DNA from: Wenzhouxiangella sp. XN79A
GTDB taxonomy: Bacteria > Pseudomonadota > Gammaproteobacteria > Xanthomonadales > Wenzhouxiangellaceae
Assembly: GCF_012272825.1 (NCBI RefSeq)
Contig: NZ_JAAWWS010000157.1
Coordinates: 110,968-174,967, forward strand
Length of the DNA: 64,000 nucleotides
Direction: 5' to 3'
Part shown: piece after piece, positions 20,671 to 34,880 of the stretch
Position numbering within the stretch: the first letter of the stretch is position 1
Layout: every line of letters begins with the position of its first letter
Position numbers and translations under genes: made by a program
The notes under the pieces: model-generated
Databases searched by the model: none
What the model was told of the DNA's origin: nothing
The model's input: only the letters and a program-made list of their open reading frames with translations

Positions 20671-22743
20671 TCAATCCTCGCTGGACGGATCCGGCACCTT
20701 CTCATCGTAGCGCCCGAACCAGGCCAGGATGTGGCGGATCTTGGACGCCAGCTGGCTGGGCCGGCCGGCGATGCCGTGCGGGGCTTCGGGAATCCGGACC
20801 AGCACCGAGTCGATGCCGCGCAGCTTCAGCGCCTGGTAGTACTGTTCCGATTCCCACATCGGGGTGCGCCAGTCGGCCTCCCCGGTCAACACCATGGTGG
20901 GGGTCGATACGTTGCCGACGCGCGACAGCGGCGATCGCCTCCAGTACTCGTCCTGGGCCTCCCACGGCGGAGCCGGGAACCAGTACTTGTGGAAGAACGG
21001 GGTGAAATCGGCGGTCAGCACGAAGCTGGTCCAGTTGATCACCGGCTTGGCGACCACCGCGGCCCGGAAGCGATCGGTGGTGCCGATGATCCAGGCGGTC
21101 AGCACGCCGCCGCCGGAGCCGCCGGTCACGAACAGGCGGTCGGGATCGGCGATGCCGCGCTCGATCAGCACGTCGACACCGTCGATCAGGTCCTGGTAGT
21201 CGTCGCCGGGGTAGGCATGGTGGATTTCGTTGGCGAAGTCGGCGCCGTAGCTGGTCGAGCCGCGCGGGTTGAGGTAGGCCACGGCATAGCCGGCCGCGGC
21301 CATCAATTGGACTTCCATCGAGAACCGGTCGCCGTAGTCGGCGAACGGGCCGCCGTGGATTTCCAGGATCAGCGGCAGCGCGGTCTCACCGTCGTGGCCG
21401 GGCGGCAGGGCGACCCAGCCCTGGATCTCCAGACCGTCGAGCGAGGAGCGGTAGCGGAATTCCTCGACCGGCGCCAGCTCGCGGTGGTCGAGCAGTTCCG
21501 CGTTGAGCCGGGTCAGCCGGGTCGTTTCGACGCCGCGGCGGCCGACGTCGGCCCGGACCAGGTCGGCCGGGTGGGCCGGTGTGGTGGCGGTGAACACCAG
21601 GCGGTCGCTGCCGGCGTCGAAGGCGCCGCTGGCGTAGGGCCGACCCAGCGTGGTGCCGCCGACGCCGGAGACCAGCCGGGTCCGCGTTCCGTCGAGGTCG
21701 ATGCGGTCGATCACCCCGGTGCCGCGGTCGCTGTAATGAACGTACAGCGCCTTGCCCTCGGCGTCCCAGGCGAAGTCGTCGATCGAGCGGTCGAGGTCGG
21801 CGGTCAGCGATCGGGGTTCGCCGTCGTCGATCAGGTACAGCTCGGTGTTGTGGTAACCGAGCCGTTCATCGTCGAAGCCCAGCCAGGCCAGGCGGTCGCC
21901 GCCCGGTTGAACCGCCGGGGCATTGTCGGGGCCGAAGCGGTCGGTCAGCGGCGTGATCTCCAGCGTGGCCAGGTCGAGTCGGACCAGGTCGGTGTCGTTG
22001 CGCTCCAGCGCGAAGTCCTCGCGCCGGTTGGTCGCGAACACCAGCGATTGCCCGTCGGTCGACCAGGCCGCGGCGCCCGGTTGCGGATAGGGACCTTCGG
22101 TCAATTGACGGGCCGGGCCGCCGTCGGCCGGTACGACGAAGCGCTGGGTCTGGCCGTGCGGCAGGAAGCCCTGGCCGTCGACCCGGAACACCGGCTGCTC
22201 GACGACCCGTGCCGGCGGCGCCCAGTCCGCGCCTTCCGGCGGCTTCAGCGGCTCGACGATGCGTGGCGCTTCGGTCGCCACGAAGCGCCGGAACGCGATT
22301 CGCTCGCCGTCCGGCGACCAGCTCGGGTCCGACGGGGCGTGCGAGCCCGCGGTCAGCGCGGTGGTCCGGCCGGAGTCCAGCCAGAGCACCCGGAGCTGGA
22401 CGTCGCCGTCGCCGCCGTGGCCGATCCAGGCAACGCGCGTTCCATCGGGCGACCAGGCCGGCGAGCCGGCGTGGCCTTCGGCCGGGGTCAGTGCTTGCTG
22501 CACGCCGTCGGCGTCGATCAGCCACAGCTGGCCCCGGTTGCGGTCCCGCATCGCGTCCAGGGTGCGCCGCACGTAGACCACGCGCTCGCCGTCGGGCGAC
22601 AGCGCCGGGGCGTCGGCGTATTCCAGCCCGAAGATGTCGTGGGCGGTCAGCGGCGGGTTCGCGGCCAGGCCGCCGGCGGCGGCCAGCAGCAGGGCGGTCA
22701 GCACCGCGCGCAGTCGGGCCGAGCAGGGTCGGGTCGGGGTCAT
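20671..22743 (-). CDS. S9 family (acylaminoacyl-peptidase-like) serine peptidase
   Basis: This 690-residue exported prolyl oligopeptidase-family enzyme has an N-terminal signal peptide (about 1-28), a beta-propeller built of WD40/TolB-like repeats (ALSPDGERVVYVRR, AWSPDGTRVAWIG, SWSPDGERIAFRR) and a C-terminal alpha/beta hydrolase. The nucleophile is Ser543 in TGGSGGG. The Asp is in VLTGEADWRTP and the His in PEAPHGIAGRP. Such enzymes take oligopeptides in the periplasm or outside the cell, often with N-blocked or proline-containing ends. Its start overlaps the stop of the larger S9 peptidase by 4 bp, so the two form an operon. Confidence 0.9.
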   Translation of the reverse strand: MTPTRPCSARLRAVLTALLLAAAGGLAANPPLTAHDIFGLEYADAPALSPDGERVVYVRRTLDAMRDRNRGQLWLIDADGVQQALTPAEGHAGSPAWSPDGTRVAWIGHGGDGDVQLRVLWLDSGRTTALTAGSHAPSDPSWSPDGERIAFRRFVATEAPRIVEPLKPPEGADWAPPARVVEQPVFRVDGQGFLPHGQTQRFVVPADGGPARQLTEGPYPQPGAAAWSTDGQSLVFATNRREDFALERNDTDLVRLDLATLEITPLTDRFGPDNAPAVQPGGDRLAWLGFDDERLGYHNTELYLIDDGEPRSLTADLDRSIDDFAWDAEGKALYVHYSDRGTGVIDRIDLDGTRTRLVSGVGGTTLGRPYASGAFDAGSDRLVFTATTPAHPADLVRADVGRRGVETTRLTRLNAELLDHRELAPVEEFRYRSSLDGLEIQGWVALPPGHDGETALPLILEIHGGPFADYGDRFSMEVQLMAAAGYAVAYLNPRGSTSYGADFANEIHHAYPGDDYQDLIDGVDVLIERGIADPDRLFVTGGSGGGVLTAWIIGTTDRFRAAVVAKPVINWTSFVLTADFTPFFHKYWFPAPPWEAQDEYWRRSPLSRVGNVSTPTMVLTGEADWRTPMWESEQYYQALKLRGIDSVLVRIPEAPHGIAGRPSQLASKIRHILAWFGRYDEKVPDPSSED

Positions 22744-25160
22744 CGATCGTCTCCTCGTGCGGCGTTGTCGCCGATGGACTGTTCGAACAGCTTCAGAATC
22801 CGGCGGTACTGGTCCAGCCAGCTTTCCGGGTGCACGTAGCCGTGCGGTTCGAGCGGGTAGGAGGCCAGCTCCCAGTCCTGCTTCTCGAGCTCGATCAGGC
22901 GCTGGACCAGCCGGATCGAATCCTTCCAGAACACGTTGTCGTCGAGCATGCCGTGGCTGATCAGCAGGTCGCCGGCCAGGCCGTCGACGAACTCGATCGG
23001 CGAGGAGCGCCGGTAGGCCTCGGGATCGACCTCGGGCGTGTTCAGGATGTTCGAGGTGTAGAAATGGTTGTAGTGCGCCCAGTCGGTGACCGGCCGCAGC
23101 GAGGCGCCGGCGGCGAAGGTCTCCGGCGCTTTGAACATGGCCATGAAGGTCATGAAGCCGCCGTAGGATCCGCCGTAGACGCCGACCCGGGCCGGATCGC
23201 CGTCGTGGTTCTCGACCACCCAGTCCACACCGTCGATCAGGTCCTCGAGCTCGGGCGTGCCCATCTGGCGATAGATGGCGGTTCGCCAGTCACGCCCGTA
23301 GCCGCGGCTGGCCCGGTAGTCCATGTCCAGCACGTGGTAGCCCCGCTCGGTCAGCAGATTGTGGAACATCTGCTCGCGGAAGTAGTAGGGAAACCGGTGG
23401 TGGGTGTTCTGGGTGTAACCGGCGCCGTGTACGAACAGCACCACCGGGCGCGGTCCTTCGAAGTCGCCGCGGGCCGGGTAGAACTTCGTCCAGATCGGCG
23501 CATCCACGTGACGGGACGGAATGCCCACGAACTCCACCGGCTGCCAGTCGATGGTCCTGTAGCGCTCGCTGCGGGTGTCGGTGCCGGCAGTCGGTTCTCC
23601 GCCGTCGATGTCGATCACCGCCGCCTGGGCCGGGAGGTACGGCCCGGAGTGGCGAAGCAGGATCCGCTTCAGTTCCGGGCCGAGCGTGAAGCTCTCCACG
23701 CCCTTGAGTTCGGACAGGCGGGTCAGCTCGCCGCGGCGAAGGTCGATACGGTAGAGATCGTACTCGGTCGGGTGGGCACGGTTGGTCAATGCCCAGGCGA
23801 TATCGGGGTCCAGGCCGAAGGCGATGTCGAACACTTCGAACTCGCCGCCGGTCACGGCCCGGGCCGGGCCGCCCGGGCCTGCGGTGTAGAGGTGGCTGTA
23901 GCCGGACTGCTCGGACAGCAGCCACAGCGTCCGGCTGCCCGGAATCCAGCCGAACTCGTTGAACGACCAATTGATCCAGGCCGGGTCGGTGAGGCGGTGC
24001 CGTTCGGTCAGCGTCGGGCCCTGGTCGGCGTCGCCGCCGGCATCGATCGTCACCGTCCAGCGATCCTTGTTGTCGATCGCGCGCAACTGGACCGCAACGA
24101 TCGAACGGTCCGGGTGCCACTCGACGCCGGCCACCGAAACGGGGCGGGGATTGTCCGCGTCGTGCGCTTCGATGTCCTGCTCGGCCTTCAGTTCGGCGAG
24201 CGGATCCTCGTCGATGCCGGACAGGCTGCCCAGGTCGAGCTCGTGCCGGGTCCGGGTGGCCAGGTCGAGCAGCCAGAGCTGCTGCGGGGTCGGTGGTTCG
24301 CGCCCCACGAGCGTGCGTACGTCCTCGATCTCGACGTAGCCCGACTCGGTGACGAAGCGCGGCATCGCGTCGTTGCGGCCCTCCGCGCTGCCGGCCTTGC
24401 GGACCGCGACCAGCAACCAGCGACCGTCGGACGAAGGTGCGGAGACGACCGGTTCCATGCCCTGGCCGAGGTACCAGGGCGCCGGCGCCCGGCTCGGATC
24501 GGCCGCAACCAGGCCCAGCTCGTGCTCGCGCTGATCGATCCGGCGTTCGCGCTCGCGGGCCAGCGTCTCGAACAGTTCCAGCTGGTGCTGCTCGAGGGCA
24601 TCGTCCGGCTCGGCATCCGGTGGATCTTCGAAGCGCAGGTCGGCCAGGGGCTGGATGACCCGCGTATCGAGGTCGATCCGCCACCAGTCGCGGCCGAGAC
24701 GGACCAGCACGCGGTTCGATGCGCTGCCGAAGCGGGCCGCGCCGGCATCGCCGCTGGCGGTCAGCTGGACCAGCGCCGCGGTGTCGAGCTCGCGCAGGTA
24801 CAGGTTGCCGTCGCGGATCGTCAGTGCACGCCGACGGGCGTCGTCGTAGACCGGGTCGGGTCCGTCGAGGCCGGCCCGTTCATCGGGCATGAGCACCCGG
24901 TGAGCGCCGGTCCGGCTGTCGACCTGCAGCAGGTCGCGGATGTCGGAATCCGCACGCTTGATCCTGGCGGTGTAGTGGCGTCCGTCGAGCTGCCACCAGG
25001 CCGCTTCCACCGGCGGTCCGATCCAGTCCGGATCGGCCATGATCTGCTTCAGGTCGGGGGTCTGCGCGGCGGCCGTGGCAGCGGCCGCCAGGGCCAGTGC
25101 CGAAGCCAGCAGGCGACGCCAGCGGGTCGGCGCGGGGCGGCGAGGGAACGATGGGGCCAC
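22740..25160 (-). CDS. S9B dipeptidyl-peptidase IV-like serine peptidase
   Basis: This 806-residue exported peptidase has a long basic N-terminus, then a signal segment ending in AAAATAAAQ (about 33). A beta-propeller (about 60-540) follows and then an alpha/beta hydrolase with Ser665 in VYGGSYGGFM, Asp in HGMLDDNV and His in EPHGYVHPES. The VEWHPDRSIVAVQL and WINWSFNEFGWIPGSRTLWLLSEQSG stretches are typical of bacterial DPP4 relatives. The Glu-Glu motif that binds the substrate N-terminus in DPP4 is not obvious, so the exact specificity is uncertain. It is the first gene of a two-peptidase operon; the next coding sequence upstream is the end of the sphingolipid operon, 66 bp away. Confidence 0.9.
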   Translation of the reverse strand: MAPSFPRRPAPTRWRRLLASALALAAAATAAAQTPDLKQIMADPDWIGPPVEAAWWQLDGRHYTARIKRADSDIRDLLQVDSRTGAHRVLMPDERAGLDGPDPVYDDARRRALTIRDGNLYLRELDTAALVQLTASGDAGAARFGSASNRVLVRLGRDWWRIDLDTRVIQPLADLRFEDPPDAEPDDALEQHQLELFETLARERERRIDQREHELGLVAADPSRAPAPWYLGQGMEPVVSAPSSDGRWLLVAVRKAGSAEGRNDAMPRFVTESGYVEIEDVRTLVGREPPTPQQLWLLDLATRTRHELDLGSLSGIDEDPLAELKAEQDIEAHDADNPRPVSVAGVEWHPDRSIVAVQLRAIDNKDRWTVTIDAGGDADQGPTLTERHRLTDPAWINWSFNEFGWIPGSRTLWLLSEQSGYSHLYTAGPGGPARAVTGGEFEVFDIAFGLDPDIAWALTNRAHPTEYDLYRIDLRRGELTRLSELKGVESFTLGPELKRILLRHSGPYLPAQAAVIDIDGGEPTAGTDTRSERYRTIDWQPVEFVGIPSRHVDAPIWTKFYPARGDFEGPRPVVLFVHGAGYTQNTHHRFPYYFREQMFHNLLTERGYHVLDMDYRASRGYGRDWRTAIYRQMGTPELEDLIDGVDWVVENHDGDPARVGVYGGSYGGFMTFMAMFKAPETFAAGASLRPVTDWAHYNHFYTSNILNTPEVDPEAYRRSSPIEFVDGLAGDLLISHGMLDDNVFWKDSIRLVQRLIELEKQDWELASYPLEPHGYVHPESWLDQYRRILKLFEQSIGDNAARGDDR

Positions 25161-25226: not shown

Positions 25227-26411
25227 TCAGGCCGCCTTCTGCAGCCGGCCGAAGGCGTCGATGATGCGGTCGATCTGGTCCGGGCTGTGCGCCGCGCTCA
25301 GGCTGATCCGGAGCAGGTTCAGGCCCTTCGGCGTGGCGGGGGGGATCATCAGGTTGGCGTAGACTCCGGCGTCGAGCAGGCCGTACCAGTGGGCCAGCGC
25401 CGACTCGCGGTCGGGCATCACGATCGCTGCGACCGGCCCGGGGTCGGCGCTGCCCAGGGTGTAGCCGAGCTCGTTCAGCGCGCCGTAGAGCTGGTGGATG
25501 TTGCGCCACAGCTGCTTGCGCAGGGCCTGGCCGTGAACGACCTTGTCCAGCGCCGTGCGGGTGGCCGCGATCACGGCCGGCGACGGCGAAGCGGTGAAGA
25601 TATATGGCCGGGCGGCCAGCCGGACGTATTCCAGCTCGGCGTGGCGGCTGACGCAGAACCCGCCGATGCCGGCCAGGCTCTTGGAGAAGGTGCCGACGAC
25701 GAAGTCGATGTCGTCGAGCACGCCGCGGTCCTCGGCCACGCCCAGGCCGCGTTCGCCGAACACGCCGAACGAGTGCGCCTCGTCGAGCAGCAGCCAGGCG
25801 CCGTGGCGCTTCTTGACTTCGATGAATGCGTCCAGCGGCGGCTGGTCGCCCATCATCGAATACAGCCCTTCGACCACGATCAGCGCGTGCCGGGCGTCGT
25901 CGCCCAGGCGGGCGAGGCGGCGGTCGAGGTTGGCCGGATCATTGTGGCGAAAGACCACGGTCCGGGCGTGACCCAGCCGCGCGCCGTCGTAGATGCTGGC
26001 GTGCGAATCGCTGTCGAGCAGCAGGTAATCGTCCTTGCCGGCCAGCGCCGAGATCGCCCCGAGGTTGGCCTGGTAGCCGGTCGAGAAGACCATGGCCGAC
26101 GGCCAGCCCCAGGCCCGGGCCAGGTCGCGCTCCAGCGCGGCGTGACTGGCGTAGCTGCCGTTGGCCATGCGTGACCCGGTGGTCCCGGTGCCCTGCTCGC
26201 TGAGCGCTCGACGGGCCGACTCGACGACGTCGGGGTCCATGGTCAGGCCCAGGTAGTTGTTGGTTCCGGCCAGGATGACCCGTCGGCCGCCGATCGTACC
26301 TTCGGTGGCCGAGTGCACGGCGTCGATCGGTGTGGCCACCGGCGGAATCTCGGCGCGATCCAGGTCCGCGCGAGCCTTCGCCACGTCGGCGAACTTGTCG
26401 AACAGGCTCAT
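25227..26411 (-). CDS. spt: serine palmitoyltransferase (alpha-oxoamine synthase)
   Basis: This 394-residue fold-type I PLP enzyme of the alpha-oxoamine synthase family carries the Schiff-base Lys244 in GTFSKSLAGIGG. His137 in DSDSHASIYDG stacks on PLP, and Asp210 is in LLLDEAHSFGVFGERG. Family members make KBL, ALA, KAPA or 3-ketodihydrosphingosine. The context decides: it is the last gene of an operon with an acyl carrier protein, an extended SDR and a fatty acyl-AMP ligase, the same set as the Caulobacter sphingolipid genes. Reaction: L-serine plus a long acyl thioester to 3-ketodihydrosphingosine and CO2, in the cytoplasm. Its ATG overlaps the ACP stop by 4 bp, consistent with acyl-ACP being the donor. 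Confidence 0.88.
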   Translation of the reverse strand: MSLFDKFADVAKARADLDRAEIPPVATPIDAVHSATEGTIGGRRVILAGTNNYLGLTMDPDVVESARRALSEQGTGTTGSRMANGSYASHAALERDLARAWGWPSAMVFSTGYQANLGAISALAGKDDYLLLDSDSHASIYDGARLGHARTVVFRHNDPANLDRRLARLGDDARHALIVVEGLYSMMGDQPPLDAFIEVKKRHGAWLLLDEAHSFGVFGERGLGVAEDRGVLDDIDFVVGTFSKSLAGIGGFCVSRHAELEYVRLAARPYIFTASPSPAVIAATRTALDKVVHGQALRKQLWRNIHQLYGALNELGYTLGSADPGPVAAIVMPDRESALAHWYGLLDAGVYANLMIPPATPKGLNLLRISLSAAHSPDQIDRIIDAFGRLQKAA

Positions 26412-26665
26412 GCTTCACCGTCCTTGCACAGCGGTTCGATCCGGCCGGCAAGTTCGTTCAGGGTACGCGCCTCGGCCAGTACCTCCACCGGGATCGAGAC
26501 ATCGAGCCGGTCCTCGATTTCCATGACCAGGTCCATGATCTGGACCGAATCCAGGCCGATTTCGCTGGTCAGCACGGCGTCGAAATCCACAGTGCCGAGC
26601 TGCGGCAGGGACACGGCGACCGCGTCCTGGATCGCTTGGTGAATGTCGGTTCGGGCGTCGGTCAT
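26408..26665 (-). CDS. acpR: acyl carrier protein for sphingoid base synthesis
   Basis: This 85-residue four-helix carrier protein has the 4'-phosphopantetheine attachment Ser40 in SEIGLDSVQIMDLV. Helix 2 and the acidic EIEDRLDVSIP stretch are typical of ACPs. It would carry the fatty acid activated by the acyl-AMP ligase and hand it to serine palmitoyltransferase. The ATG at 26665 is chosen because it overlaps the SDR stop as ATGA, the pattern at most junctions here; an ATG 12 bp upstream is possible. It is distinct from fatty-acid-synthase ACP, which normally sits with fabG/fabF. Confidence 0.88.
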   Translation of the reverse strand: MTDARTDIHQAIQDAVAVSLPQLGTVDFDAVLTSEIGLDSVQIMDLVMEIEDRLDVSIPVEVLAEARTLNELAGRIEPLCKDGEA

Positions 26666-27594
26666 GCGCGGGTCCATCCGGGTAGGGATTCAAGCGCTTC
26701 GTCCAGGCGCCGGTGCGGCCGCCAGTCCAGGTGCGCGGAAAGCGCGAGATTATCGCAGACCCAGTCAACGTGCCGCAATTCACGCACTTTGCCGGGCGAG
26801 AGCAGCGCGGCGCGGCCGCGCAGCCGGTTCGCGGCCAGCGCCAGCCGGCCGGCGGTGCGCAGCGCCGGACCGGGGATGGCCAGGGTACGGATCCGACCGC
26901 CGCGAACCGTTGCGGCAAGCCGGGCGACCTCGGACCAGGTCCAGCCGCCGTCGGGCTGCGGACCGGCCAGCGCGAACGGCGCGGTCGAAGGGCCTCGGTA
27001 GAGCAGGCGCTCGATCGCGGCACCGACGTCGTCGACATGGACCAGCGAAAAGCGCGCGGTCGCCGGGCCGAGCCGGATCAACCAGCCGCGCGCCAGCATT
27101 CGCCAGAAATCGGCCAGCGCCGGGTCGTCGGGACCGTAGACCGCCGGCGGTCGAAGCACGGTCGACGACCCCGGCAGTCGCTCGCGCCATGCCCGCTCGG
27201 CACCGGCTTTCGAGGCCGTGTACCAGGACAGCTCGGGCCGGGTCGCGGCCAGCGAGGAGACCAGCAGGGCGTGGGCGCCCGGGGCGCGGTCGGCGATCGC
27301 GTCGGCCAGCAGGGCGGTACCGTCGAGGTTGGCCCGCTCGAAGTCCCGCTGCCGGCTGCCGGCGATCGCGCCGGCCAGGTGGACCACGGCGTCGGCGCCG
27401 TCGACCAGGCGTTGCAGCGCGGCGCGATCGGCCAGGTCGCCGACTACGTGTTCGAGCTTCGGATGGTCGACCGTCAGTCGGTCGGGATCGCGCACCAGGG
27501 CGCGGATTCGGGCGGGGTTCGAGGAGGCCAGCAGGCGCGCCAGCGTGGCGCGCCCGATGAAGCCGGTGGCGCCGGTCAGTGCGATGACCGGCAT
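26662..27594 (-). CDS. cerR: NAD(P)-dependent extended SDR, ceramide reductase candidate
   Basis: This 310-residue extended short-chain dehydrogenase (epimerase/dehydratase fold) has the nucleotide loop TGATGFIGRATL (7-18), VVHLAGA (70-76) and the YTASK catalytic pair Tyr125/Lys129. In Caulobacter the NDP-epimerase-like CerR, encoded beside serine palmitoyltransferase, reduces the 3-keto group of the N-acylated intermediate. The same neighbourhood here supports that role, although the fold alone would also fit a sugar epimerase. It starts 3 bp after the acyl-AMP ligase stop and overlaps the ACP start, so it is translated as part of one operon. Confidence 0.82.
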   Translation of the reverse strand: MPVIALTGATGFIGRATLARLLASSNPARIRALVRDPDRLTVDHPKLEHVVGDLADRAALQRLVDGADAVVHLAGAIAGSRQRDFERANLDGTALLADAIADRAPGAHALLVSSLAATRPELSWYTASKAGAERAWRERLPGSSTVLRPPAVYGPDDPALADFWRMLARGWLIRLGPATARFSLVHVDDVGAAIERLLYRGPSTAPFALAGPQPDGGWTWSEVARLAATVRGGRIRTLAIPGPALRTAGRLALAANRLRGRAALLSPGKVRELRHVDWVCDNLALSAHLDWRPHRRLDEALESLPGWTRA

Positions 27595-27597
27595 GGT

Positions 27598-29394
27598 TCA
27601 GTCGGCCGTGTTCAACGCCTGGGTGTGGGGCGTGCGATCGACCAGCTCGCGCGGCAGCACCTCGGTGTTTTCCAGCCCGTTGCGCTTCAGGAAGTCGAGC
27701 CGCGTACCGCTGCGCGACAGCTTGCCCGAGGAGGTCCGCGGCAGGGTGTGCAGCGGAACCAGTTCGATCAGGCAGGCGATGCCGAACTCCGACTGGATCT
27801 GCTGCCTCAGTCGCTCGACCAGCCGGGCCTGGCGGAACGGATCCTGCTCGCGGCACTGCACGACCAGCACCGCGACCTCGCTGCCGTCCTCGGCCGGGAT
27901 CGCGAACGCCGAGGCGTCTTCGGGGCGAACTTCGGGCTGCTGCTCGGCCAGGTACTCGAGGTCCTGGGGCCAGATGTTGCGGCCGTTGATGATCAGCAGG
28001 TCCTTGGCCCGCCCGGTGATGAACAGCGAGTCACCGGCCCGGTAGCCGACGTCGCCGGTGTTCAGCCAGCCGTCGTCGGTCAGCGCTTCGCGGGTGGCGT
28101 CTTCGTTGTTGGCGTAGCCCGACATCACGCTCGGGCCGCGCAGGTAGATCGTGCCGCAGTGACGCTCCGGCAGGATGCGCCCGGACGTGTCGCGGATCTC
28201 GACTTCGTAGTCGGGCAGCGGTCGGCCGCAGTTGACGAACTCGGTGACGCGGGTGTCGGCATCGGCGTCGGCGTCGATCGGCGCGGCGCGGCGCTCGCGC
28301 GCGAGCAGGTCGGCGTCGAGCCGATCGACTTCCAGGCCCTGGGCCAGCGGCGCGAAGCTGACCGCCAGCGAACACTCGGCCATGCCGTAGCAGGGCAGGA
28401 AGGCCGACGGCGAGAACTTCGAAGGCTCCAGCGCTTCGGCGAAGCGATCCAGCCAGCTCGAGCGGATCATCTCGGCGCCGACGCCGGCCACCCGCCAGGC
28501 CGACAGGTCGAAGCGGTCGAGGTCGCCCTCGCGCAGCCGGCGAGCGACCAGCGCGAAGCCGAACGGCGGCGAGTACGAAATGGTCGCGCCGTTGCGTGAA
28601 ATCAGCTCCAGCCAAAGCCGCGGACGCATCGCGAAATCACGCGTGCCGAGGTAGTCGACCGAAAGCTGCGAGACGACCGGGCCGAGAATCAGGCCGACCA
28701 GGCCCATGTCGTGATAGAAGGGCAGCCACGACATGTAGCGGTCGCCGCGGCGGATCTGGACGCCGTACTGCAGGATGCCGGCGAGGTTGGTCAGCACGGC
28801 GCGCTGGGTGATCATCGTCCCGCGCGGAAAGCGGGTGCTGCCCGAGGTGTACTGCAGGTAGGCCAGGTCGTCCGGGGCCGGCGGATCGGGCAGGGCATCG
28901 GCCGGCTCGAGCGCTTCGAAGGCCTCGAGCGTGCCGCTGACCGCCAGGTCCAGGCCCTCGACCGCTTCGGCGAGGAAGGCCTGGAAGTCACGCGAGGCAT
29001 AGGCCGCCCGGGCCCGGCAGTCGATCAGCAGCGCGCGCAGGTGCTTGACGAACGCTTCCTTGCCGCCCAGGTGCACCGCCGCCGGCAGTGGCACCGGGAC
29101 CAGCCCGGCGTACTGGCAGGCGAAGAACATGACATGGAACTCGGGCTGGGTGTCGGCGACCAGCGCGATCCGGCTGCCGCGCGGCAGGCCGAGCGCGGTC
29201 AGGCGCAGCGCGGTTTCGCGCGCCCGCTCCCGGAGCTCGCCGTAGGTCAGCACGGACGTCAGCTGGCCTCGTCCATTGTGGAAGTTGCAGCCCGTGGTTC
29301 CCTGGGCGGCATAGTCCAGCGCTTCGGCGAGGCTTCGGTAGCCGGAGGTCTTCAGCGGCAGCGAATTCTGCGTGGGGGTTGGCTTCAGGCTCAA
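27598..29394 (-). CDS. aasR: fatty acyl-AMP ligase / acyl-ACP synthetase
   Basis: This 598-residue ANL-superfamily adenylating enzyme has the P-loop YTSGSTRFPRGTMI (about 192-205), the A5-like YGMAECSLAVSF motif, TGDVGY, GRAKDLLIINGRNIWPQDLE and the C-terminal RTSSGKLSR lysine. The ECSLAVS motif, and the IING-RNIWPQDLE rather than a CoA-ligase hinge, point to the FAAL group that transfers acyl-adenylate to carrier proteins rather than CoA. The expected partner is the ACP two genes downstream. A TTG start is likely, with an AAGGG ribosome site 9 nt before it; no better in-frame ATG was found. It heads the leftward operon. Confidence 0.87.
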   Translation of the reverse strand: MSLKPTPTQNSLPLKTSGYRSLAEALDYAAQGTTGCNFHNGRGQLTSVLTYGELRERARETALRLTALGLPRGSRIALVADTQPEFHVMFFACQYAGLVPVPLPAAVHLGGKEAFVKHLRALLIDCRARAAYASRDFQAFLAEAVEGLDLAVSGTLEAFEALEPADALPDPPAPDDLAYLQYTSGSTRFPRGTMITQRAVLTNLAGILQYGVQIRRGDRYMSWLPFYHDMGLVGLILGPVVSQLSVDYLGTRDFAMRPRLWLELISRNGATISYSPPFGFALVARRLREGDLDRFDLSAWRVAGVGAEMIRSSWLDRFAEALEPSKFSPSAFLPCYGMAECSLAVSFAPLAQGLEVDRLDADLLARERRAAPIDADADADTRVTEFVNCGRPLPDYEVEIRDTSGRILPERHCGTIYLRGPSVMSGYANNEDATREALTDDGWLNTGDVGYRAGDSLFITGRAKDLLIINGRNIWPQDLEYLAEQQPEVRPEDASAFAIPAEDGSEVAVLVVQCREQDPFRQARLVERLRQQIQSEFGIACLIELVPLHTLPRTSSGKLSRSGTRLDFLKRNGLENTEVLPRELVDRTPHTQALNTAD

Positions 29395-29613
29395 ACCGAT
29401 GTTCCCTTGTTGTTCTGCGTTCTCGCGTAGAATCGCCAGCGAGAGTTTATTGGCAAATCTAATCGACCATTATAAGACGCTGACGTGTCAATGGAAACAC
29501 GTTCGTGACCGTCCCTTGCCGCGACACGTTAGGCGAAGTGCACTTCAAATCGTGTTAATGCCCGCAATTCTGCAACATTCGACCCCGAAATTGCCACCCG
29601 TGCGTCCACGCCC
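29395..29613. promoter_or_regulatory. AT-rich divergent promoter region of the sphingolipid cluster
   Basis: This 219-bp gap between the two divergent operons is markedly richer in A/T than its surroundings (29440-29580). Rightward candidate: TTGGCA (29450-29455), 15-nt spacer, TATAAG (29471-29476). Leftward candidate: TTGCCA (29456-29451), 16-nt spacer, GATTCT (29434-29429), which is weak at -10. The two -35 hexamers overlap at 29450-29456, which would coordinate both operons. These are by-eye matches, and no operator was identified. Confidence 0.45.
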
Positions 29614-30765
29614 ATGACGACGCCGGAGTCGACGATCGAGGTGCGTCCGGTCCGCCTGCCGGCCGACTGGCGGCGATTCCACGCCCTGCCGGTGCGTCTG
29701 TACGCCGGCGATCCGAACTGGGTGCGTCCGCTCGACCTGCAGCTTCGCCAGCAGTGGGCGCCGCGGAATCCGTTCTTCGCCCACGCCGAGGCACAGGCCT
29801 TCATCGCACTGCGCGGCGACCGGGCCGTCGGCCGGATCAGTGCCCAGATCGATCGCCTCAACGACGACCGGGGTCGTCCGGACCTCGGCTGGTTCGGCCA
29901 GCTCGAAGCCGAGGACGACATCGAGGTGTTCCGGGCCCTGGAGCGCGCGGCCGGCGGCTGGCTGGCCGAGCGTGGCCGGACCCGCATGCAGGGTCCGTTC
30001 GACCTGTCGATCAACCAGCAGAGCGGGCTGCTGGTCGACGGCTTCGACTCACCGCCGATGATGATGATGGGGCACGCACGGCCCTACTACGCCGACCGGC
30101 TGGTCGAACTCGGCTTCGAGTCGGTCGCCGAACTGCTGGCCTACCAGGGCGACCTGGAGTTCCGCGATCCGCGCGGGATGCGGCGCGTGCTGGGCCGGCT
30201 CGGCGACCGGCTGAGGCTGGAGCGGGTCGAGCGCGGACGCTTGATGGAGCGGGCCGGGTTGATGCGCGAACTGTTCAACGCGGCCTGGGCCGACAACTGG
30301 GGCTTCGTGCCGATGACCGAGGCCGAGTTCGATCACACCGTGCAGGACATGAAATTGCTGATCCGGCCGGGCTATGTCCAGATCGCCTGGCTCGACGACG
30401 AGCCGGCCGCCTTCATGGTGACCCTGCCCGATCTCAACGAGCTGGTGCGCGATCTCGGCGGCCGGCTGTTCCCGTTCGGTGCGGCCCGCCTGCTGTGGCG
30501 CATCTGGCGCCGCCGGAGCACCCGCGCCCGGGTGCCGCTGATGGGGGTGGCGCCGAAGTACCAGCGCTCGATCACCGGCGCGGCGCTGAGTTACGCGATG
30601 GTCGCCGACACCCGGGATCACCTGAAGGCCGACGGCGTTGAATGGACCGAGCAGTCGTGGATCCTGGAGCAGAATCGCGGGATGCGCTCGCTGATCGAAT
30701 CGATCGACATGCATGTGGCCAAGCGCTATCGCGTCTTCGAACGCTCGATCGGGTCGTCGGAATGA
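29614..30765 (+). CDS. bcerS: GNAT-fold ceramide synthase homologue (bCerS)
   Basis: This 383-residue protein is of the type usually annotated as GNAT N-acetyltransferase of about 380 residues. Visible elements are VRLYAGDPNWVRPLDLQ (26-43), AFIALRGDRAVGRISAQID (64-82), GPFDLSINQQSGLLVDGFDSPPMMMM (about 128-153) and a late GVAPKYQRSITGAALSYAMV acyl-CoA-loop-like motif. The bacterial ceramide synthase of Caulobacter (CCNA_01212), which N-acylates the 3-keto sphingoid base, has this size and fold. Its position divergent to serine palmitoyltransferase makes the assignment strong. No Shine-Dalgarno sequence precedes the ATG. Its stop overlaps the nucleotidyltransferase start (ATGA). Confidence 0.83.
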   Translation: MTTPESTIEVRPVRLPADWRRFHALPVRLYAGDPNWVRPLDLQLRQQWAPRNPFFAHAEAQAFIALRGDRAVGRISAQIDRLNDDRGRPDLGWFGQLEAEDDIEVFRALERAAGGWLAERGRTRMQGPFDLSINQQSGLLVDGFDSPPMMMMGHARPYYADRLVELGFESVAELLAYQGDLEFRDPRGMRRVLGRLGDRLRLERVERGRLMERAGLMRELFNAAWADNWGFVPMTEAEFDHTVQDMKLLIRPGYVQIAWLDDEPAAFMVTLPDLNELVRDLGGRLFPFGAARLLWRIWRRRSTRARVPLMGVAPKYQRSITGAALSYAMVADTRDHLKADGVEWTEQSWILEQNRGMRSLIESIDMHVAKRYRVFERSIGSSE

Positions 30766-31589
30766 CTGCCCCGGTCTCGAAGGCCACGGCTCCGGCGGCG
30801 GCGTCGAGGCCGGCGATCATCGTGCTGGCCGGCGATCGCGGTCCCGGGGACCCGCTGGCTGCGTCCGCCGGCGTGGCCGGAAAGGTGCTGGTCCCGGTCG
30901 CCGGGCGGCCGATGCTGGCCCACGTGCTCGATGCGGCCCGCGGGCTGGGGGACGATGTCGCAATCCGGCTGGTCTGCCCGGCGCGGCCCGAATACACGGC
31001 CGTCGCCGAGCCGTTCGGCGGCTGCGCCGGCAGTCTGCAGACGGTCGAACCCGCATCGGGTCCGGCGGCCAGCGTGGCTGCGGCGCTGGCGACCCTGCCG
31101 GCCGACGGACCGGTACTGCTGCTGACCGGCGACCACCCGCTGCTGACTCGGGAGTGGCTGCGCGGCTTCCTCGCCGCGGCCGAAGCCACCGGCGCCGACG
31201 CGGTGGTCGGACTGGCCGATGCCGATGCCGTTCGGGCCCGCTTTCCGGAAGGCCGGCGGACCCGCTACCGCTTCGCCGACCGCTCGGTCTGCGGCACCAA
31301 CCTGTTCCTGTTCCGGACCGCGCAGGGCCGCCGGGTGGTCGAGACCTGGCAGGCGTTCGAGCGCGATCGCAAGAAGCCGTGGCGGATCGTCGGCCGACTC
31401 GGCCCGGTCGACCTGCTGCGCTACCTGCTGCGGCGACTGAGCCTGGCCGGCGCGTTCGAGGCGCTGTCGCGGCGTCTCGATGCGCGCGCCGCACCGGTCA
31501 TCGTGCCGTGGCCGGAAGCGGCGGTGGATGTCGATACGCCGGCCGACAAGGTGCTGGTCGAATCGGTCTTCCGGCAACGCGCGTCGTGA
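30762..31589 (+). CDS. MobA-like nucleotidyltransferase in the sphingolipid operon
   Basis: This 275-residue NTP-transferase domain protein has an N-terminal nucleotide loop (IIVLAGDRGPGDPLAASAGV, then KVLVPVAGRPMLAHVLDAAR). The acidic metal site is in LLLTGDHPLLTREW, and VDVDTPADK lies near the end. MobA, IspD and CTP:phosphocholine cytidylyltransferase-like enzymes share this fold. The loop reads AGDRGPGD instead of the common AGG-SSRMG, so it is a divergent branch. Located between ceramide synthase and LptF with 4-bp overlaps on both sides, it is best explained as activating a head group for the ceramide, but the substrate is unknown. Confidence 0.72.
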   Translation: MTAPVSKATAPAAASRPAIIVLAGDRGPGDPLAASAGVAGKVLVPVAGRPMLAHVLDAARGLGDDVAIRLVCPARPEYTAVAEPFGGCAGSLQTVEPASGPAASVAAALATLPADGPVLLLTGDHPLLTREWLRGFLAAAEATGADAVVGLADADAVRARFPEGRRTRYRFADRSVCGTNLFLFRTAQGRRVVETWQAFERDRKKPWRIVGRLGPVDLLRYLLRRLSLAGAFEALSRRLDARAAPVIVPWPEAAVDVDTPADKVLVESVFRQRAS

Positions 31590-32653
31590 ACCGGCTCGAG
31601 CGCTACGTCGCCCTGCAGCTGCTGCGACCGATCTTCGGCGTGTTCTTCGTCGCGCTGCTGGTGATGCTGGCCTATTACTTCTCGAGCTACCTCGCCGATG
31701 CGGTGATCGAGCGCCTGACCATCGACGCGGTGGCCAAGCTGGCCACGCTCAAGCTCGGCCTGTTCTTCGACGTGCTGATCCCCGGCGCGATCTTTCTCGG
31801 CGCGATCACCGGTCTCGGCCGGCTGCAGAGCGGCTACGAGATGACCGCAATGGCCGCCGCCGGCGTCGGCCGGACGCCGGTGGTGCGGGCCGTGCTGGCG
31901 ATCGCGCTGATCGGCCTGCTGCTGGTGGCCGCGCTGACCCACCTGTTCCGACCGTGGGCCTACGAGACGCTGTATTCGATGGAAGGCGAGCTGGTCGCGC
32001 GGGTCGATCTCGGCCGGGTCGAGCCGGGGCGCTTCGAGATCGGCGACGCGGCCTGGGTGATCTTTGCCGAGGCGCGCGACGGTGATGCGCTGGTCGATGT
32101 GATGGTTCATCAGCAGACCCCGACCTATCGCAACCTGCTGCGCGCGGAGCGGCTGGAGCAGCAGACCGCCGTGGACGGCTCGATCGCGCTGGAATTCAGC
32201 GGCAACGTGCGGTCCTGGCGCTTGCAGCAGGACGGCGCGACCGACCTGGTCGGCTCCAGCGAACGGCTGCGCGTGCAGTTCGATCCGCCGGCATCGGTCG
32301 AGCCGTCGCGCAAGCGTCGTGCGCTGTCGTTCGAACAGCTGCTGGATGCCGCCGGTCCGCTGGAGTGGGGTGAATTGCAGTGGCGCACGCTGATGCCGCT
32401 GTCGGTACCGGTGCTGGCGCTGCTGGCGCTGGCGATCGCGCGGATCGAACCGCGTCACGGCCAGACCTCGCGGGTACTGCTGGCCACGCTGCTGGTGACG
32501 CTGTATTTCGCCGCGATCGGCACCCTGGCCAATCGCGTGGATGCCGGCACCATGTCGATCTGGCCGGGCCTGTTCTGGGCGCCGCTGGTCGTGCTGCCGC
32601 TGGTGCTGGGCCGGCTCTGGCGGTCCTGGCGCGGCCCCGGGGCGCCGATATGA
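31586..32653 (+). CDS. lptF: LptF-like permease (YjgP/YjgQ family)
   Basis: This 355-residue inner-membrane permease of the LptF/LptG family has six transmembrane segments (about 12-35, 55-80, 96-116, then 270-290, 298-318 and 325-345). They flank a periplasmic beta-jellyroll domain (about 120-260). The LERYVALQLLRPI start and the YEMTAMAAAGVGRTPV coupling helix are typical. The GTG start overlaps the nucleotidyltransferase stop (GTGA), and the stop overlaps the next permease. LptF normally works with LptG and the ATPase LptB to extract lipopolysaccharide. Here it is embedded in a sphingolipid operon rather than beside pepA, the usual gammaproteobacterial site, suggesting a sphingolipid cargo. 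Confidence 0.85.
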   Translation: MNRLERYVALQLLRPIFGVFFVALLVMLAYYFSSYLADAVIERLTIDAVAKLATLKLGLFFDVLIPGAIFLGAITGLGRLQSGYEMTAMAAAGVGRTPVVRAVLAIALIGLLLVAALTHLFRPWAYETLYSMEGELVARVDLGRVEPGRFEIGDAAWVIFAEARDGDALVDVMVHQQTPTYRNLLRAERLEQQTAVDGSIALEFSGNVRSWRLQQDGATDLVGSSERLRVQFDPPASVEPSRKRRALSFEQLLDAAGPLEWGELQWRTLMPLSVPVLALLALAIARIEPRHGQTSRVLLATLLVTLYFAAIGTLANRVDAGTMSIWPGLFWAPLVVLPLVLGRLWRSWRGPGAPI

Positions 32654-33714
32654 GCGTGCTCGACCGCTATCTGCTCGGTCGCCTGCTGCGCGGCTACCTC
32701 GGCATGGGTCTGGCGGTGGGCGCGCTGGTCTGGCTCATCGCGCTGCTCGAAGCGCTCGGTGCCGACAACGGCGGCGGTGCACTGGCGACGCTGTGGCAGG
32801 CGAGTGCGGCGGTGCCGATCCGCCTGATCGACCTGCTGCCGGTGGTCACCGTGCTGGCCACCGCCAGCGTGCTGGCCGCGCTGCAGGCCCAGCGAGAACT
32901 GGTCGTGGTCCGCGCCGCGGGCATGTCGCTGCTGCACGTGACCCGGCTTGCGCTGGTCCCGGCGCTGGGCGCGGCGCTGCTGGCGCTGGCGGCACTGCAG
33001 TTCCTGGCACCGACGCTGAGCCCGGCGACGGGCGACCGGGTCGAAGCCGGCGCGCCCGGGGACACCAGCCTGTGGCACCCCTGGCACGGCCTGTGGGTGC
33101 GCTCGAACGCCGACTTCATGAACGTGCGCCGGTTCGATCCCGGTCAGTTGCCCGGCGACATCGCGATCTACGAATTCGACGACCAGGGCCGGCTGGAACG
33201 CCAGATCCGGGCCGAACGGGCGGTACCGGCGCCCGAGCGCTGGACGCTGGAAGAGGTGCAGATCAAGACCCTGGATGGCTCGGAGGGGCCGCGAATCGTG
33301 CGTCATGAGCAGTATCGCTGGGACTCCTTCCTGACCGCCCGGCAGCTGGAGCTGTTCCGCCAGCCGCCGGCCAGCCTGCCGTTGACCGACCTGTGGACCT
33401 ACGTGGCCAGCCTGGAGGAACGGGCCCAGGATGCCTCGGAATTCGAGCTGGTGCTGTGGCGGCGGATCACCCTGCCGCTGGCCGGGCTCGGAATGGTGCT
33501 GATCGCGGCCGCGCTGGCCGCCTCACCCGGCAAGGGGCGGGGCTTCAGTCTGAAGCTGGTCGCGTCGGTCGGCGTCGGCCTGGGCTATCACCTGCTGGCC
33601 GGCATGGCGGGGTTCTTCGCGCTGGTCACCGATCTGCCGCCTGCGCCGGTGGTGCTGGTGCCGCCGCTGCTGCTGGTGGTCGGCGCCTCGGTGTTGCTGG
33701 TCCGGTCCCGCTGA
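32650..33714 (+). CDS. lptG: LptG-like permease (YjgP/YjgQ family)
   Basis: This 354-residue partner of the preceding permease has an LptG-type start (SVLDRYLLGRLLRGY), the QRELVVVRAAGMSLLHV coupling segment (about 85-101) and the GLWVRSNADFMNVRRFDPG start of the jellyroll domain (about 150). Six transmembrane segments are present. It begins within the LptF stop codon (ATGA), so the two should be made in equal amounts, as expected for a heterodimer. The last gene of the bCerS-nucleotidyltransferase-LptF-LptG operon. Alternative: these are the only LptF/G genes of the genome and serve lipopolysaccharide; the window alone cannot exclude this. Confidence 0.85.
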   Translation: MSVLDRYLLGRLLRGYLGMGLAVGALVWLIALLEALGADNGGGALATLWQASAAVPIRLIDLLPVVTVLATASVLAALQAQRELVVVRAAGMSLLHVTRLALVPALGAALLALAALQFLAPTLSPATGDRVEAGAPGDTSLWHPWHGLWVRSNADFMNVRRFDPGQLPGDIAIYEFDDQGRLERQIRAERAVPAPERWTLEEVQIKTLDGSEGPRIVRHEQYRWDSFLTARQLELFRQPPASLPLTDLWTYVASLEERAQDASEFELVLWRRITLPLAGLGMVLIAAALAASPGKGRGFSLKLVASVGVGLGYHLLAGMAGFFALVTDLPPAPVVLVPPLLLVVGASVLLVRSR

Positions 33715-33792: not shown

Positions 33793-34119
33793 TCAGCCGG
33801 CGGCCTTGACCCAGGCGCTGCACCAGCCGTCCTTGTTGACCAGCTTGCCCGGGAAGATCGCGCAGCCGATCCATTCGCCGTCGCCGCCCTGGGCGAGCTG
33901 GCAGTTGGCGCAATTCTGCGAAACGTCGTGCGAGGCGAACTTGCCGTTGTCGACGTCTTCTGTGTTGTGCACATAGCCCAGCGCCGAAGCCTGCGGATCG
34001 GACGGGTCGAGCTGTTCCTGGGCGAAGGCGTCGCCGAAGCGCGTCATCGTCGGCAGGATCAGGGCCAGCGAACCGGCGCCGGCCAGCTTGAACAGATTTC
34101 TCCGGGAACACTTCGACAT
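33793..34119 (-). CDS. hip: high-potential iron-sulfur protein (HiPIP)
   Basis: This 108-residue periplasmic electron carrier has a twin-arginine signal (CSRRNLFKLAGAGSLAL, residues 4-20; cleavage near AFA-QE at 33). The mature domain of about 75 residues has the four [4Fe-4S] ligands Cys70, Cys73, Cys86 and Cys100 in the C-x2-C-x12-C-x13-C pattern of HiPIPs, plus the conserved Tyr49 in LGYVHNTEDVD. HiPIPs donate electrons to photosynthetic reaction centres or terminal oxidases; no such partner is nearby. The gene is monocistronic, with an AGGAGATC ribosome site and a Fur-like sequence about 110-145 bp upstream. Confidence 0.95.
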   Translation of the reverse strand: MSKCSRRNLFKLAGAGSLALILPTMTRFGDAFAQEQLDPSDPQASALGYVHNTEDVDNGKFASHDVSQNCANCQLAQGGDGEWIGCAIFPGKLVNKDGWCSAWVKAAG

Positions 34120-34225
34120 GGGATCTCCTTGGGCGTGATGCCGTTGTGGGTTTTGAGCGTCGATGCAGTGTGCAGTTTACTGTATGTACGGACGCTGAAC
34201 CGCGATTCGATCGTCACGCCGCGAT

Positions 34226-34264
34226 GATCATTCGCATTCGTAAGTCATTCTCATTATTGAATAA
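34226..34264. promoter_or_regulatory. Fur-box-like site upstream of hip
   Basis: This A/T-rich block in an otherwise GC-rich genome reads on the minus strand with AATAATGAGAATGACTTACG and then AATGCGAATGATC. It resembles the repeated hexamers of Fur boxes (GATAATGATAATCATTATC). It lies about 107-145 bp upstream of the hip start, in the 275-bp gap before the fasciclin gene terminator. Iron control of an iron-sulfur protein would make sense. The match is imperfect, and the distance is longer than usual for direct repression. Confidence 0.35.
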
Positions 34265-34330
34265 TTCGCGTTTGCTCCTGGGTCCGCGCCGGGCTCGCCG
34301 CAGGCCGTTCGAGCGCTTGCGTCGGACACG

Positions 34331-34356
34331 AAAAAAGCGGGCGGAAGGCCGCCCGC
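34331..34356 (-). terminator. intrinsic terminator of the fasciclin gene
   Basis: On the minus strand AGCGGGCGG pairs with CCGCCCGCT around a CCTT loop and is followed by six T. It begins about 39 bp after the fasciclin stop codon, a textbook rho-independent terminator. Confidence 0.9.
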
Positions 34357-34394
34357 TCGAATCGATCGTCGCCGGCGTGCCGGCGGTGGACACC

Positions 34395-34880
34395 TTACGG
34401 AAGAATGACCGAATCGATGACGTGGATCACGCCGTTGCTGGCCATGATGTCGGTGGTGATGACATTGGCGTCGTCGACCTTGACGCCGGCATCCGACACG
34501 GTGATGTCGATGTCCGACCCCTGGACGGTGGTTGCCGAGTCGAGTTCCACGACATCGGCCGCCGTGACCTTGCCGGCAACCACGTGGTAGGTCAGGACCG
34601 CGGTCAGCTGTTCGGTGTCGGCCAGCAGCGCGTTGAGCTGATCGGCCGGGATCTTGGCGAAGGCCTCGTCGGTCGGGGCGAAGACCGTGAACGGGCCTTC
34701 GCCCTTCAGGGTTTCGATCAGGCCGGCGGCTTCGAGCGCGGTGGCCAGGGTGGTGAAGGAACCGGCTTCGACGGCGGTGTCGACGATGTCCTTCTTGTTG
34801 CCGTGATGATCGGCCAGGACCGGTGCGGCCAGGGCAAGGGCCAGCAGCGAGGCAAAGGCGATGCGAGTAGCAGCGTTCAT
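34395..34880 (-). CDS. secreted fasciclin (FAS1) domain protein
   Basis: This 161-residue protein has a signal peptide ([23 protein letters not shown], cleavage near 23) followed by a short His-rich DHHGNKK stretch and a single FAS1 domain (about 30-161). The H1 motif is [17 protein letters not shown], the central block is [15 protein letters not shown], and the H2 motif [13 protein letters not shown] ends the protein. FAS1 proteins mediate adhesion or bind polysaccharides; bacterial ones are often abundant secreted proteins. A perfect AAGGAG ribosome site lies 7 nt before the ATG, suggesting high expression. Confidence 0.93.

Follow-up and report, generated by a model that had tools for sequence, protein, structure and literature searches.

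Sphingolipid synthesis in Caulobacter crescentus maps to the region CC_1168-CC_1152, which PMC11324152 describes as holding five ceramide genes, six head-group genes that include the CofC-like CC_1153, and the genes of LptC2, LptF2 and LptG2, proposed to act in transport. The same text (2024) gives contiguous orthologues of the Caulobacter ceramide genes in Azotobacter vinelandii and Pseudomonas luteola. CpgB is a ceramide kinase (PMC10331486), CpgD is a phosphoglycerate cytidylyltransferase (PMC12275187), and CerR is periplasmic (PMC11087976). As of 2024, the route of bacterial sphingolipids from the inner to the outer membrane was stated to be unknown (PMC11324152), and no sphingolipid flippase or transporter had been identified according to PMC11087976. 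The locus described here lies in a stretch of 64,000 nucleotides, called the window below, from Wenzhouxiangella sp. XN79A (contig NZ_JAAWWS010000157.1, positions 110,968 to 174,967, forward strand). The source genome, 3.75 Mb in 171 contigs, belongs to a Wenzhouxiangella-like family of Gammaproteobacteria. Eight genes in two divergent arms encode the predicted enzymes of ceramide synthesis, a nucleotidyltransferase, and a second pair of LptF/LptG permeases (Table 1). We consider it likely that they form the core of a proteobacterial sphingolipid pathway, in which ceramide would be made, its head group modified, and the product exported by LptF2/LptG2.

Ceramide-synthesis genes and their linkage

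The alpha-oxoamine synthase encoded by spt is, by sequence, a true bacterial serine palmitoyltransferase (SPT), nearer to SPT than to KBL, BioF or ALAS. It scores 590.7 bits against the SPT equivalog model NF047599 (cut-off 500), its best PDB match is an SPT (2x8u, 414 bits, as against 214 bits for KBL, 1fc4), and it is 57% identical to its counterpart in Azotobacter beijerinckii. The SPT cut-off and the PDB scores rule out KBL, BioF or ALAS as its identity. The acyl-AMP ligase passes NF006624 (762.3 bits, cut-off 600) and is 52% identical to that of A. beijerinckii. The acyl carrier protein (ACP) is 40% identical over 65 residues, and the CerR-type extended short-chain dehydrogenase/reductase (SDR) 42% over 303 residues, to the syntenic A. 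beijerinckii genes; the SDR reaches no cut-off in the NCBIfam model search. By eye, the CerR-like protein has its Rossmann motif at the very start and no signal peptide, although the CerR of Caulobacter is reported as periplasmic.

The CerS of the window has no match in the Pfam and NCBIfam model scans, and a sequence search of the PDB with a CerS profile gives none either. Two of the four CerS relatives tested pass the GNAT cut-off (PF00583), and the AlphaFold2 model of the window's protein (predicted local distance difference test, pLDDT, 94.1) has tandem GNATs as its best Foldseek matches (2wpw, 7q3a, 5kf1). It shares 45% identity with A. beijerinckii CerS and is an orthologue, with a predicted tandem GNAT fold, of the CerS in SPT clusters of Azotobacter, Pseudomonas and Stutzerimonas; N-acylation is its predicted activity. 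Its orthology to bacterial ceramide synthase (bCerS) was judged by comparison with A. beijerinckii, from the same genus as the published A. vinelandii, rather than with the Caulobacter protein.

By homology and synteny, the five-gene ceramide set (spt, acpR, cerR, aasR, cerS) is present and linked. An earlier note on this DNA, made from the sequence alone, had equated the first five proteins with the Caulobacter set, called the alpha-oxoamine synthase an SPT, and placed the GNAT-fold protein in the bCerS family, and all three assignments held. The note had named a synthase of the KBL, BioF or ALAS type and a GNAT protein outside the bCerS family as findings that would tell against it, and neither turned up. 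BioF and KBL models do match the spt product below their cut-offs, and CerS lacks any family model, as would be seen if the two enzymes served another pathway (biotin, threonine or an antibiotic-type acyl transfer). With the SPT-specific cut-off passed, SPT structures 200 bits ahead of KBL, and orthologous clusters elsewhere, we regard such a role as very improbable.

CerS is found in 32 of the 43 family genomes. All eight genes stand in one stretch in 19 of the 31 family relatives fetched, so their clustering is not chance, and chance is likewise ruled out by the recurrence of the layout in other families. Seven of the remaining 12 relatives have a contig end inside the cluster, leaving five real exceptions. 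One of these (G005) has lost the in-cluster CerS, for which a divergent CerS-like gene on another contig, next to tryptophan genes, may stand in (L039, L040); its product is 27% identical to the window's CerS and 55% to a CerS-like protein from a G159 locus in which SPT and LptF2 are also found. The other four (G006-G009, from two genera) lack a nucleotidyltransferase in the cluster and carry weaker homologues elsewhere (112-161 bits).

Beyond the family, the layout recurs in other families of Gammaproteobacteria, often with inserted extra genes; loci of A. beijerinckii, Pseudomonas asuensis and Stutzerimonas have the matching divergent order plus such genes. A CerS match was obtained in 25 of the 276 genomes of a class sample, 16 of them above 440 bits, and in 35 of the 299 genomes of a phylum sample. 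The 80 best named loci were kept, none of those listed being titled Caulobacter, and the 42 shorter than 21 kb were left out of neighbour counts. In the 38 that are at least 21 kb long, the genes within 10 kb of CerS include SPT (29), LptF2 and LptG2 (30), the nucleotidyltransferase (31), a Tam41-like gene (20) and a kinase (19). The fixed linkage of synthesis and export that the earlier note saw is a strong one, with LptF2/LptG2 near CerS in 30 of 38 loci; it is not fixed, as the cluster of four family genomes lacks the nucleotidyltransferase.

Two metagenome bins titled Klebsiella pneumoniae (L283, L293) have CerS clusters; L293 groups with Nitrosomonadaceae pairs in the LptG tree, so these titles look wrong. 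Two Gemmatimonadetes bins (L259, L271) carry CerS, SPT, ACP, fatty acyl-AMP ligase and kinase, with no LptF2/LptG2 match within the stretch examined.

A second LptF/LptG pair that follows ceramide synthase

The LptF/LptG genes of the window are the second pair of their genome. The lipopolysaccharide (LPS)-type pair adjoins pepA, an arrangement shared by all LPS-type loci of the family (18 of 18); no pepA turned up in any cluster locus tested, including that of the window. LptF2 scores 212.8 bits against TIGR04407, under the cut-off of 230, and LptG2 scores 234.5 bits against TIGR04408, just under the cut-off of 240. Trees were built by maximum likelihood with a short search and Shimodaira–Hasegawa-like approximate likelihood ratio (SH-aLRT) support only, leaving out LptFG pieces below 260 residues and duplicates. 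In them, the sphingolipid-linked LptF of Gammaproteobacteria, and likewise their LptG, group in one clade each (SH-aLRT 99), distinct from the LPS-type pairs; also placed in these clades is the pair of G225, whose linkage is not visible. An LptG tree with named loci, made from a chosen part of the rows and leaving out nine named loci of the window's family, extends this clade (99) to clusters of Azotobacter, Pseudomonas, Stutzerimonas, Nitrosomonadaceae, Desulfobulbaceae and Acidocella. Most alphaproteobacterial linked LptG fall with those of Burkholderiales (Variovorax, Ramlibacter) in a second clade (support 100). Since an approximately unbiased (AU) test does not reject all sphingolipid-linked LptG, of both alpha and gamma type, as one clade (p 0.147; 43 of 106 rows), two origins are not claimed. 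The tie of the pair to synthesis proposed in the earlier note is borne out by a second pair in the genome, in a separate clade and linked to cerS.

The presence of the pair follows that of CerS. Among family genomes that are at least 90% complete, including the window's own, all 20 with CerS have three or more LptF/LptG genes and none of the 5 without does; the counts are identical for SPT over its cut-off and for the Tam41-like gene, which is unlinked in the window's genome. Across all 43 family genomes, more than two LptF/LptG matches are found in 30 of 32 genomes with CerS, SPT in 29, the Tam41-like gene in 28, and a nucleotidyltransferase above 100 bits in 31, each against 0 of 11 without CerS. 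Both LptFG exceptions (G001, G038) are incomplete genomes in which the cluster pair alone is visible. The earlier note had offered co-occurrence as a check, and within the family lptF/lptG and the nucleotidyltransferase do track CerS and SPT. Of the 16 strong CerS genomes in the class sample, 11 have four or more PF03739 copies; none of the 260 others does, though 18 of these have three. Exhaustive rescoring of PF03739 candidates left the counts unchanged in 15 CerS-positive genomes.

Contact residues of the two kinds of pair were compared within the window's family. LptG R136, a contact to lipid A phosphate according to PMC6744409, is Arg in 5 of 30 sphingolipid-type rows versus 18 of 18 LPS-type rows; at LptG R301 the 30 rows have Lys (22) or Arg (8). 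LptF E84, given as an LptB contact in PMC5548808, and R292, an ATP contact, are kept in 32 of 32 rows. The pattern would fit a changed substrate with an unchanged engine, and LptF2/LptG2 probably carries the finished sphingolipid outward.

It might instead be that LptF2/LptG2 is a second LPS exporter, a paralogue or backup whose place next to the sphingolipid genes has no bearing on its function, with sphingolipids leaving otherwise, for example, by an MsbA-like ABC exporter and a different bridge. Both proteins score just below the LPS-family cut-offs, and a number of other observations weigh against sphingolipid export by this pair. Of the 16 sphingolipid-type rows from outside the family, 14 have Arg or Lys at LptG R136 and 14 at LptF K317, so that basic lipid A contacts are mostly retained there. 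Within the family, LptF K317 is not basic in the LPS-type pair either (Leu in 14 of 18), and several contacts, LptG K34 among them, are variable throughout, LPS-type pairs included. The restriction of the residue change to the window's family makes sphingolipid export slightly less, and a spare LPS exporter slightly more, likely. No second LptC was found in any of the 43 family genomes, 39 of which, the window's own included, have one LptC and four none found; A. vinelandii and P. luteola likewise lack LptC2 according to PMC11324152. Linkage also has its exceptions: LptF2/LptG2 is not within 10 kb of CerS in 8 of the 38 named loci, one pair in the sphingolipid-type clade (L206 of G260) is not near CerS, and G289 has CerS with its sole LptFG pair on another contig and of LPS type. 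The class and phylum searches scored at most six or seven candidates per genome, and copies may have been missed. Five family genomes without CerS are one clade in the LPS-type LptG tree, so Fisher p-values overstate independence; a single event in which both unlinked loci disappeared together may account for the pattern. Finally, the distances of CerS correlate with those of LptG2 (r 0.757) no better than with those of LPS-type LptG (r 0.76), which shows shared descent only. Against a spare LPS exporter stand the way in which the pair's presence follows CerS in both the family and class samples, and the recurrence of the same LptG clade in sphingolipid clusters of another phylum, Desulfobulbaceae. 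On balance, we think a spare LPS exporter unlikely and prefer export of sphingolipid.

Three genomes bear on both explanations. G175, G274 and G152 (L075, L076, L080) each show only two PF03739 matches, which lie some 2-6 kb from CerS and fall in the sphingolipid-type clade, and LpxC is present in all three, as in 24 of 24 genomes tested, the window's own included. The only pair found in them is apparently able to serve LPS, which also speaks for a spare LPS exporter and against a dedicated sphingolipid permease; the clade is, therefore, not strictly sphingolipid-only there. G175 and G274 are of one genus, G274 being a single contig and 100% complete, and group with Immundisolibacter (L282; support 100). 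G159, with two PF03739 matches and a sphingolipid-type LptF next to SPT, may be a further case. In G175, G274 and G152 the single pair may serve both lipids, or else an LPS-type pair has escaped detection. As a tentative extension, which we hold to be rather doubtful, the sphingolipid-type LptFG would be an extractor on a shared LptB/LptC/LptA/LptD bridge that moved with sphingolipid synthesis between classes and phyla. It would have taken the place of the LPS pair in the Immundisolibacter-like bacteria and in one or more other lineages, a single LptFG there loading LPS and sphingolipid.

The head group and a second locus

The MobA-like nucleotidyltransferase has a model (pLDDT 93.9) whose fold matches are 2dpw, GlmU, IspD and CMP-KDO synthetase. 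Residues R26, D124, D256 and D258 are invariant in 50 sequences, and K41 is kept in at least 90%. The structure alignments used 49 of 64 nucleotidyltransferase rows and 54 of 75 CerS rows, plus the window's own; here and in the trees, best matches covering less than 70% or 75% of the query (in two data sets), or with odd lengths or internal stops, were left out. By its place adjoining cerS, the gene corresponds to CC_1153 and not to CpgD (CCNA_01210, taken as CC_1152). CpgD belongs to the nucleotidyltransferase class that includes the window's protein, a likeness at the level of the class, and no CpgD-type homologue was found in the window or in L115, the second locus.

This second locus lies on another contig of the same genome (C19; L115, 4673-11556) and encodes a diacylglycerol kinase (DAGK)-type kinase, a Tam41-like homologue, an MsbA/HepA-like ABC exporter and an ELM1-relative open reading frame (ORF). 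The Tam41-like protein has no Pfam match itself and scores 334.6 bits against a profile of its relatives; from its place beside the kinase and the reported likeness of CC_1161 to cytidine diphosphate (CDP)-diacylglycerol synthase, it may be of the CpgC (CC_1161) type, so that the locus would hold candidates for both the CpgB- and the CpgC-type steps of the ceramide diphosphoglycerate (CPG2) pathway. The ABC exporter reaches the cut-off of none of the 25 NCBIfam models listed. The ORF after it, of about 750 residues, has no Pfam match; its relatives are 43-71% identical, four of four tested pass the ELM1 cut-off, and two of the four have a weak, below-cut-off likeness to GT8. Among the 19 second loci of the family (L115-L133), a desaturase is found in 16 and a gene of an LpxL-like acyltransferase family, so labelled from two members tested and not called in the window's genome, in 12. 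The self-contained pathway of the earlier note is not borne out, the kinase and cytidylyltransferase-like genes being on another contig and LptC single copy.

No homologue of the CDP-alcohol transferase (CpgA in the CPG2 pathway) or the second nucleotidyltransferase of A. beijerinckii was found in the whole window or L115, with one query sequence each and the rest of the genome not searched. A head group other than diphosphoglycerate is, therefore, possible. As a refinement compatible with sphingolipid export by LptF2/LptG2, the head group might not be phosphoglycerate at all; a phosphoceramide made by the kinase and the Tam41-like protein could be decorated by the ELM1-type glycosyltransferase-like protein. 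The grouping of the kinase, Tam41-like, ABC and ELM1-relative genes speaks for this as well, and the single queries, the confinement of the search to the window and L115, and the lack of a Pfam match in the ELM1 relative itself speak against it. We give it an appreciable chance, somewhat short of even.

In several family members (L052, 1321-4342; L217-L220; L275), genes for a NeuB-like synthase, a PseF-like cytidylyltransferase and a GFO/IDH oxidoreductase adjoin SPT, and the NeuB-like gene does so also in L088 and L089 of another family. These could possibly provide an acidic-sugar head group or be chance neighbours.

The sequences themselves show the families of the enzymes, their orthology and gene order, the shared presence or absence of the genes, and an LptFG clade of its own; from these we infer a pathway that would run as follows. 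The acyl-AMP ligase would load a fatty acid onto the dedicated ACP, SPT would condense the acyl chain with serine, CerS would N-acylate the product, and CerR would then reduce it to dihydroceramide. The nucleotidyltransferase would provide a nucleotide-activated head-group precursor, and the C19 locus, with its CpgB-like kinase, Tam41-like protein, MsbA-like exporter and ELM1 relative, would make the phospho-head group and probably also flip and decorate the lipid. Finally, LptF2/LptG2, working with the shared LptB and the single LptC, would extract the sphingolipid from the inner membrane and pass it to the Lpt bridge.

Gene layout and comparison with known systems

Table 1. Features of the sphingolipid locus, in positions of the window.
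Feature	Position	Strand	Assignment and evidence
spt	25227..26411	-	serine palmitoyltransferase; makes 3-ketosphinganine from serine and an acyl donor, the first committed step
acpR-type acyl carrier protein	26408..26677	-	PF00550, 47.1 bits; syntenic with A. beijerinckii ACP
cerR-type extended SDR	26662..27594	-	predicted keto-ceramide / 3-ketosphinganine reductase; PF01370, 64.5 bits
aasR-type fatty acyl-AMP ligase / acyl-ACP synthetase	27598..29394	-	TTG start; ACP loading predicted
divergent intergenic region	29395..29613	.	219 bp
cerS, bacterial ceramide synthase family	29614..30765	+	tandem GNAT fold
nucleotidyltransferase, CC_1153 type by position	30762..31589	+	PF12804, 62.1 bits; head-group activation predicted
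lptF2, sphingolipid-linked second LptF	31586..32653	+	GTG start; PF03739, 150.4 bits
lptG2, sphingolipid-linked second LptG	32650..33714	+	PF03739, 191.7 bits

The eight genes fill 25227-33714, with both outer ends where the earlier note had placed them, in two arms of four that diverge across the intergenic region. In transcription order, the junctions of the left arm are a 3-bp gap (ligase/SDR), a 16-bp overlap (SDR/ACP) and a 4-bp overlap (ACP/spt), and all three of the right arm are 4-bp overlaps; the mostly 4-bp overlaps described earlier are thus four of six. A promoter scan of the divergent region gave one sigma-70-like site against 0.4 expected in shuffles, which is not evidence for a promoter. 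Directly downstream of spt are two S9-family (prolyl oligopeptidase type) peptidase genes (20671-25160). On the other side (33793-34880) are a gene for a high-potential iron–sulfur protein (HiPIP) and a fasciclin-domain gene; HiPIP is next downstream of LptG2 in most family members, and the usual genes beyond the cluster in the family are HiPIP, AlkB, TilS and AccA.

The C. crescentus region (aasR, cerR, acpR, spt, cerS; CC_1160 kinase, CC_1161), as presented in PMC11324152, shares with the window the five ceramide genes, a CofC-like nucleotidyltransferase by cerS and a second LptF/LptG pair. Unlike Caulobacter, the window's family has no LptC2, and its kinase, DAGK-type as is CpgB, and CC_1161-like genes are on the second locus. 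The LptFG clade is also separate from the pairs linked in most of the alphaproteobacteria sampled, although a common LptG origin is not rejected. The locus of A. beijerinckii (L251) has the same divergent arrangement, SPT-ACP-CerR-FAAL (fatty acyl-AMP ligase) against CerS and nucleotidyltransferase and, further on, LptF2-LptG2, but adds an ABC exporter, a second nucleotidyltransferase, a CDP-alcohol transferase, a kinase and a Tam41-like gene, where the window has the eight core genes only. The LPS exporter LptB2FG (Escherichia coli lptF/lptG, L295) is of the same family, PF03739, and its LptF E84 and R292 are kept in the window's type; the window's pair differs in its separate clade, its place beside cerS and not pepA, and the loss of LptG R136 in most of the family.

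The earlier note had considered the system worth describing as new, which does not hold, given that a cluster with LptC2/F2/G2 and gammaproteobacterial examples was published in 2024 (PMC11324152). Among the titles listed in searches of open-licence PMC text, none besides the papers cited treats the LptF2/LptG2 pair. The window is a trimmed, split member of the published cluster type; new here are the LptFG clade, the joint presence and absence, and Immundisolibacter-like genomes in which the sphingolipid-type pair is the only one found and LpxC is present. The defined clade, the co-occurrence and these single-pair genomes with LpxC offer ways, provided by nature, to ask if two classes of lipid travel over the Lpt bridge, and comparison of genomes in this way makes the question of the sphingolipid route to the outer membrane a testable one.

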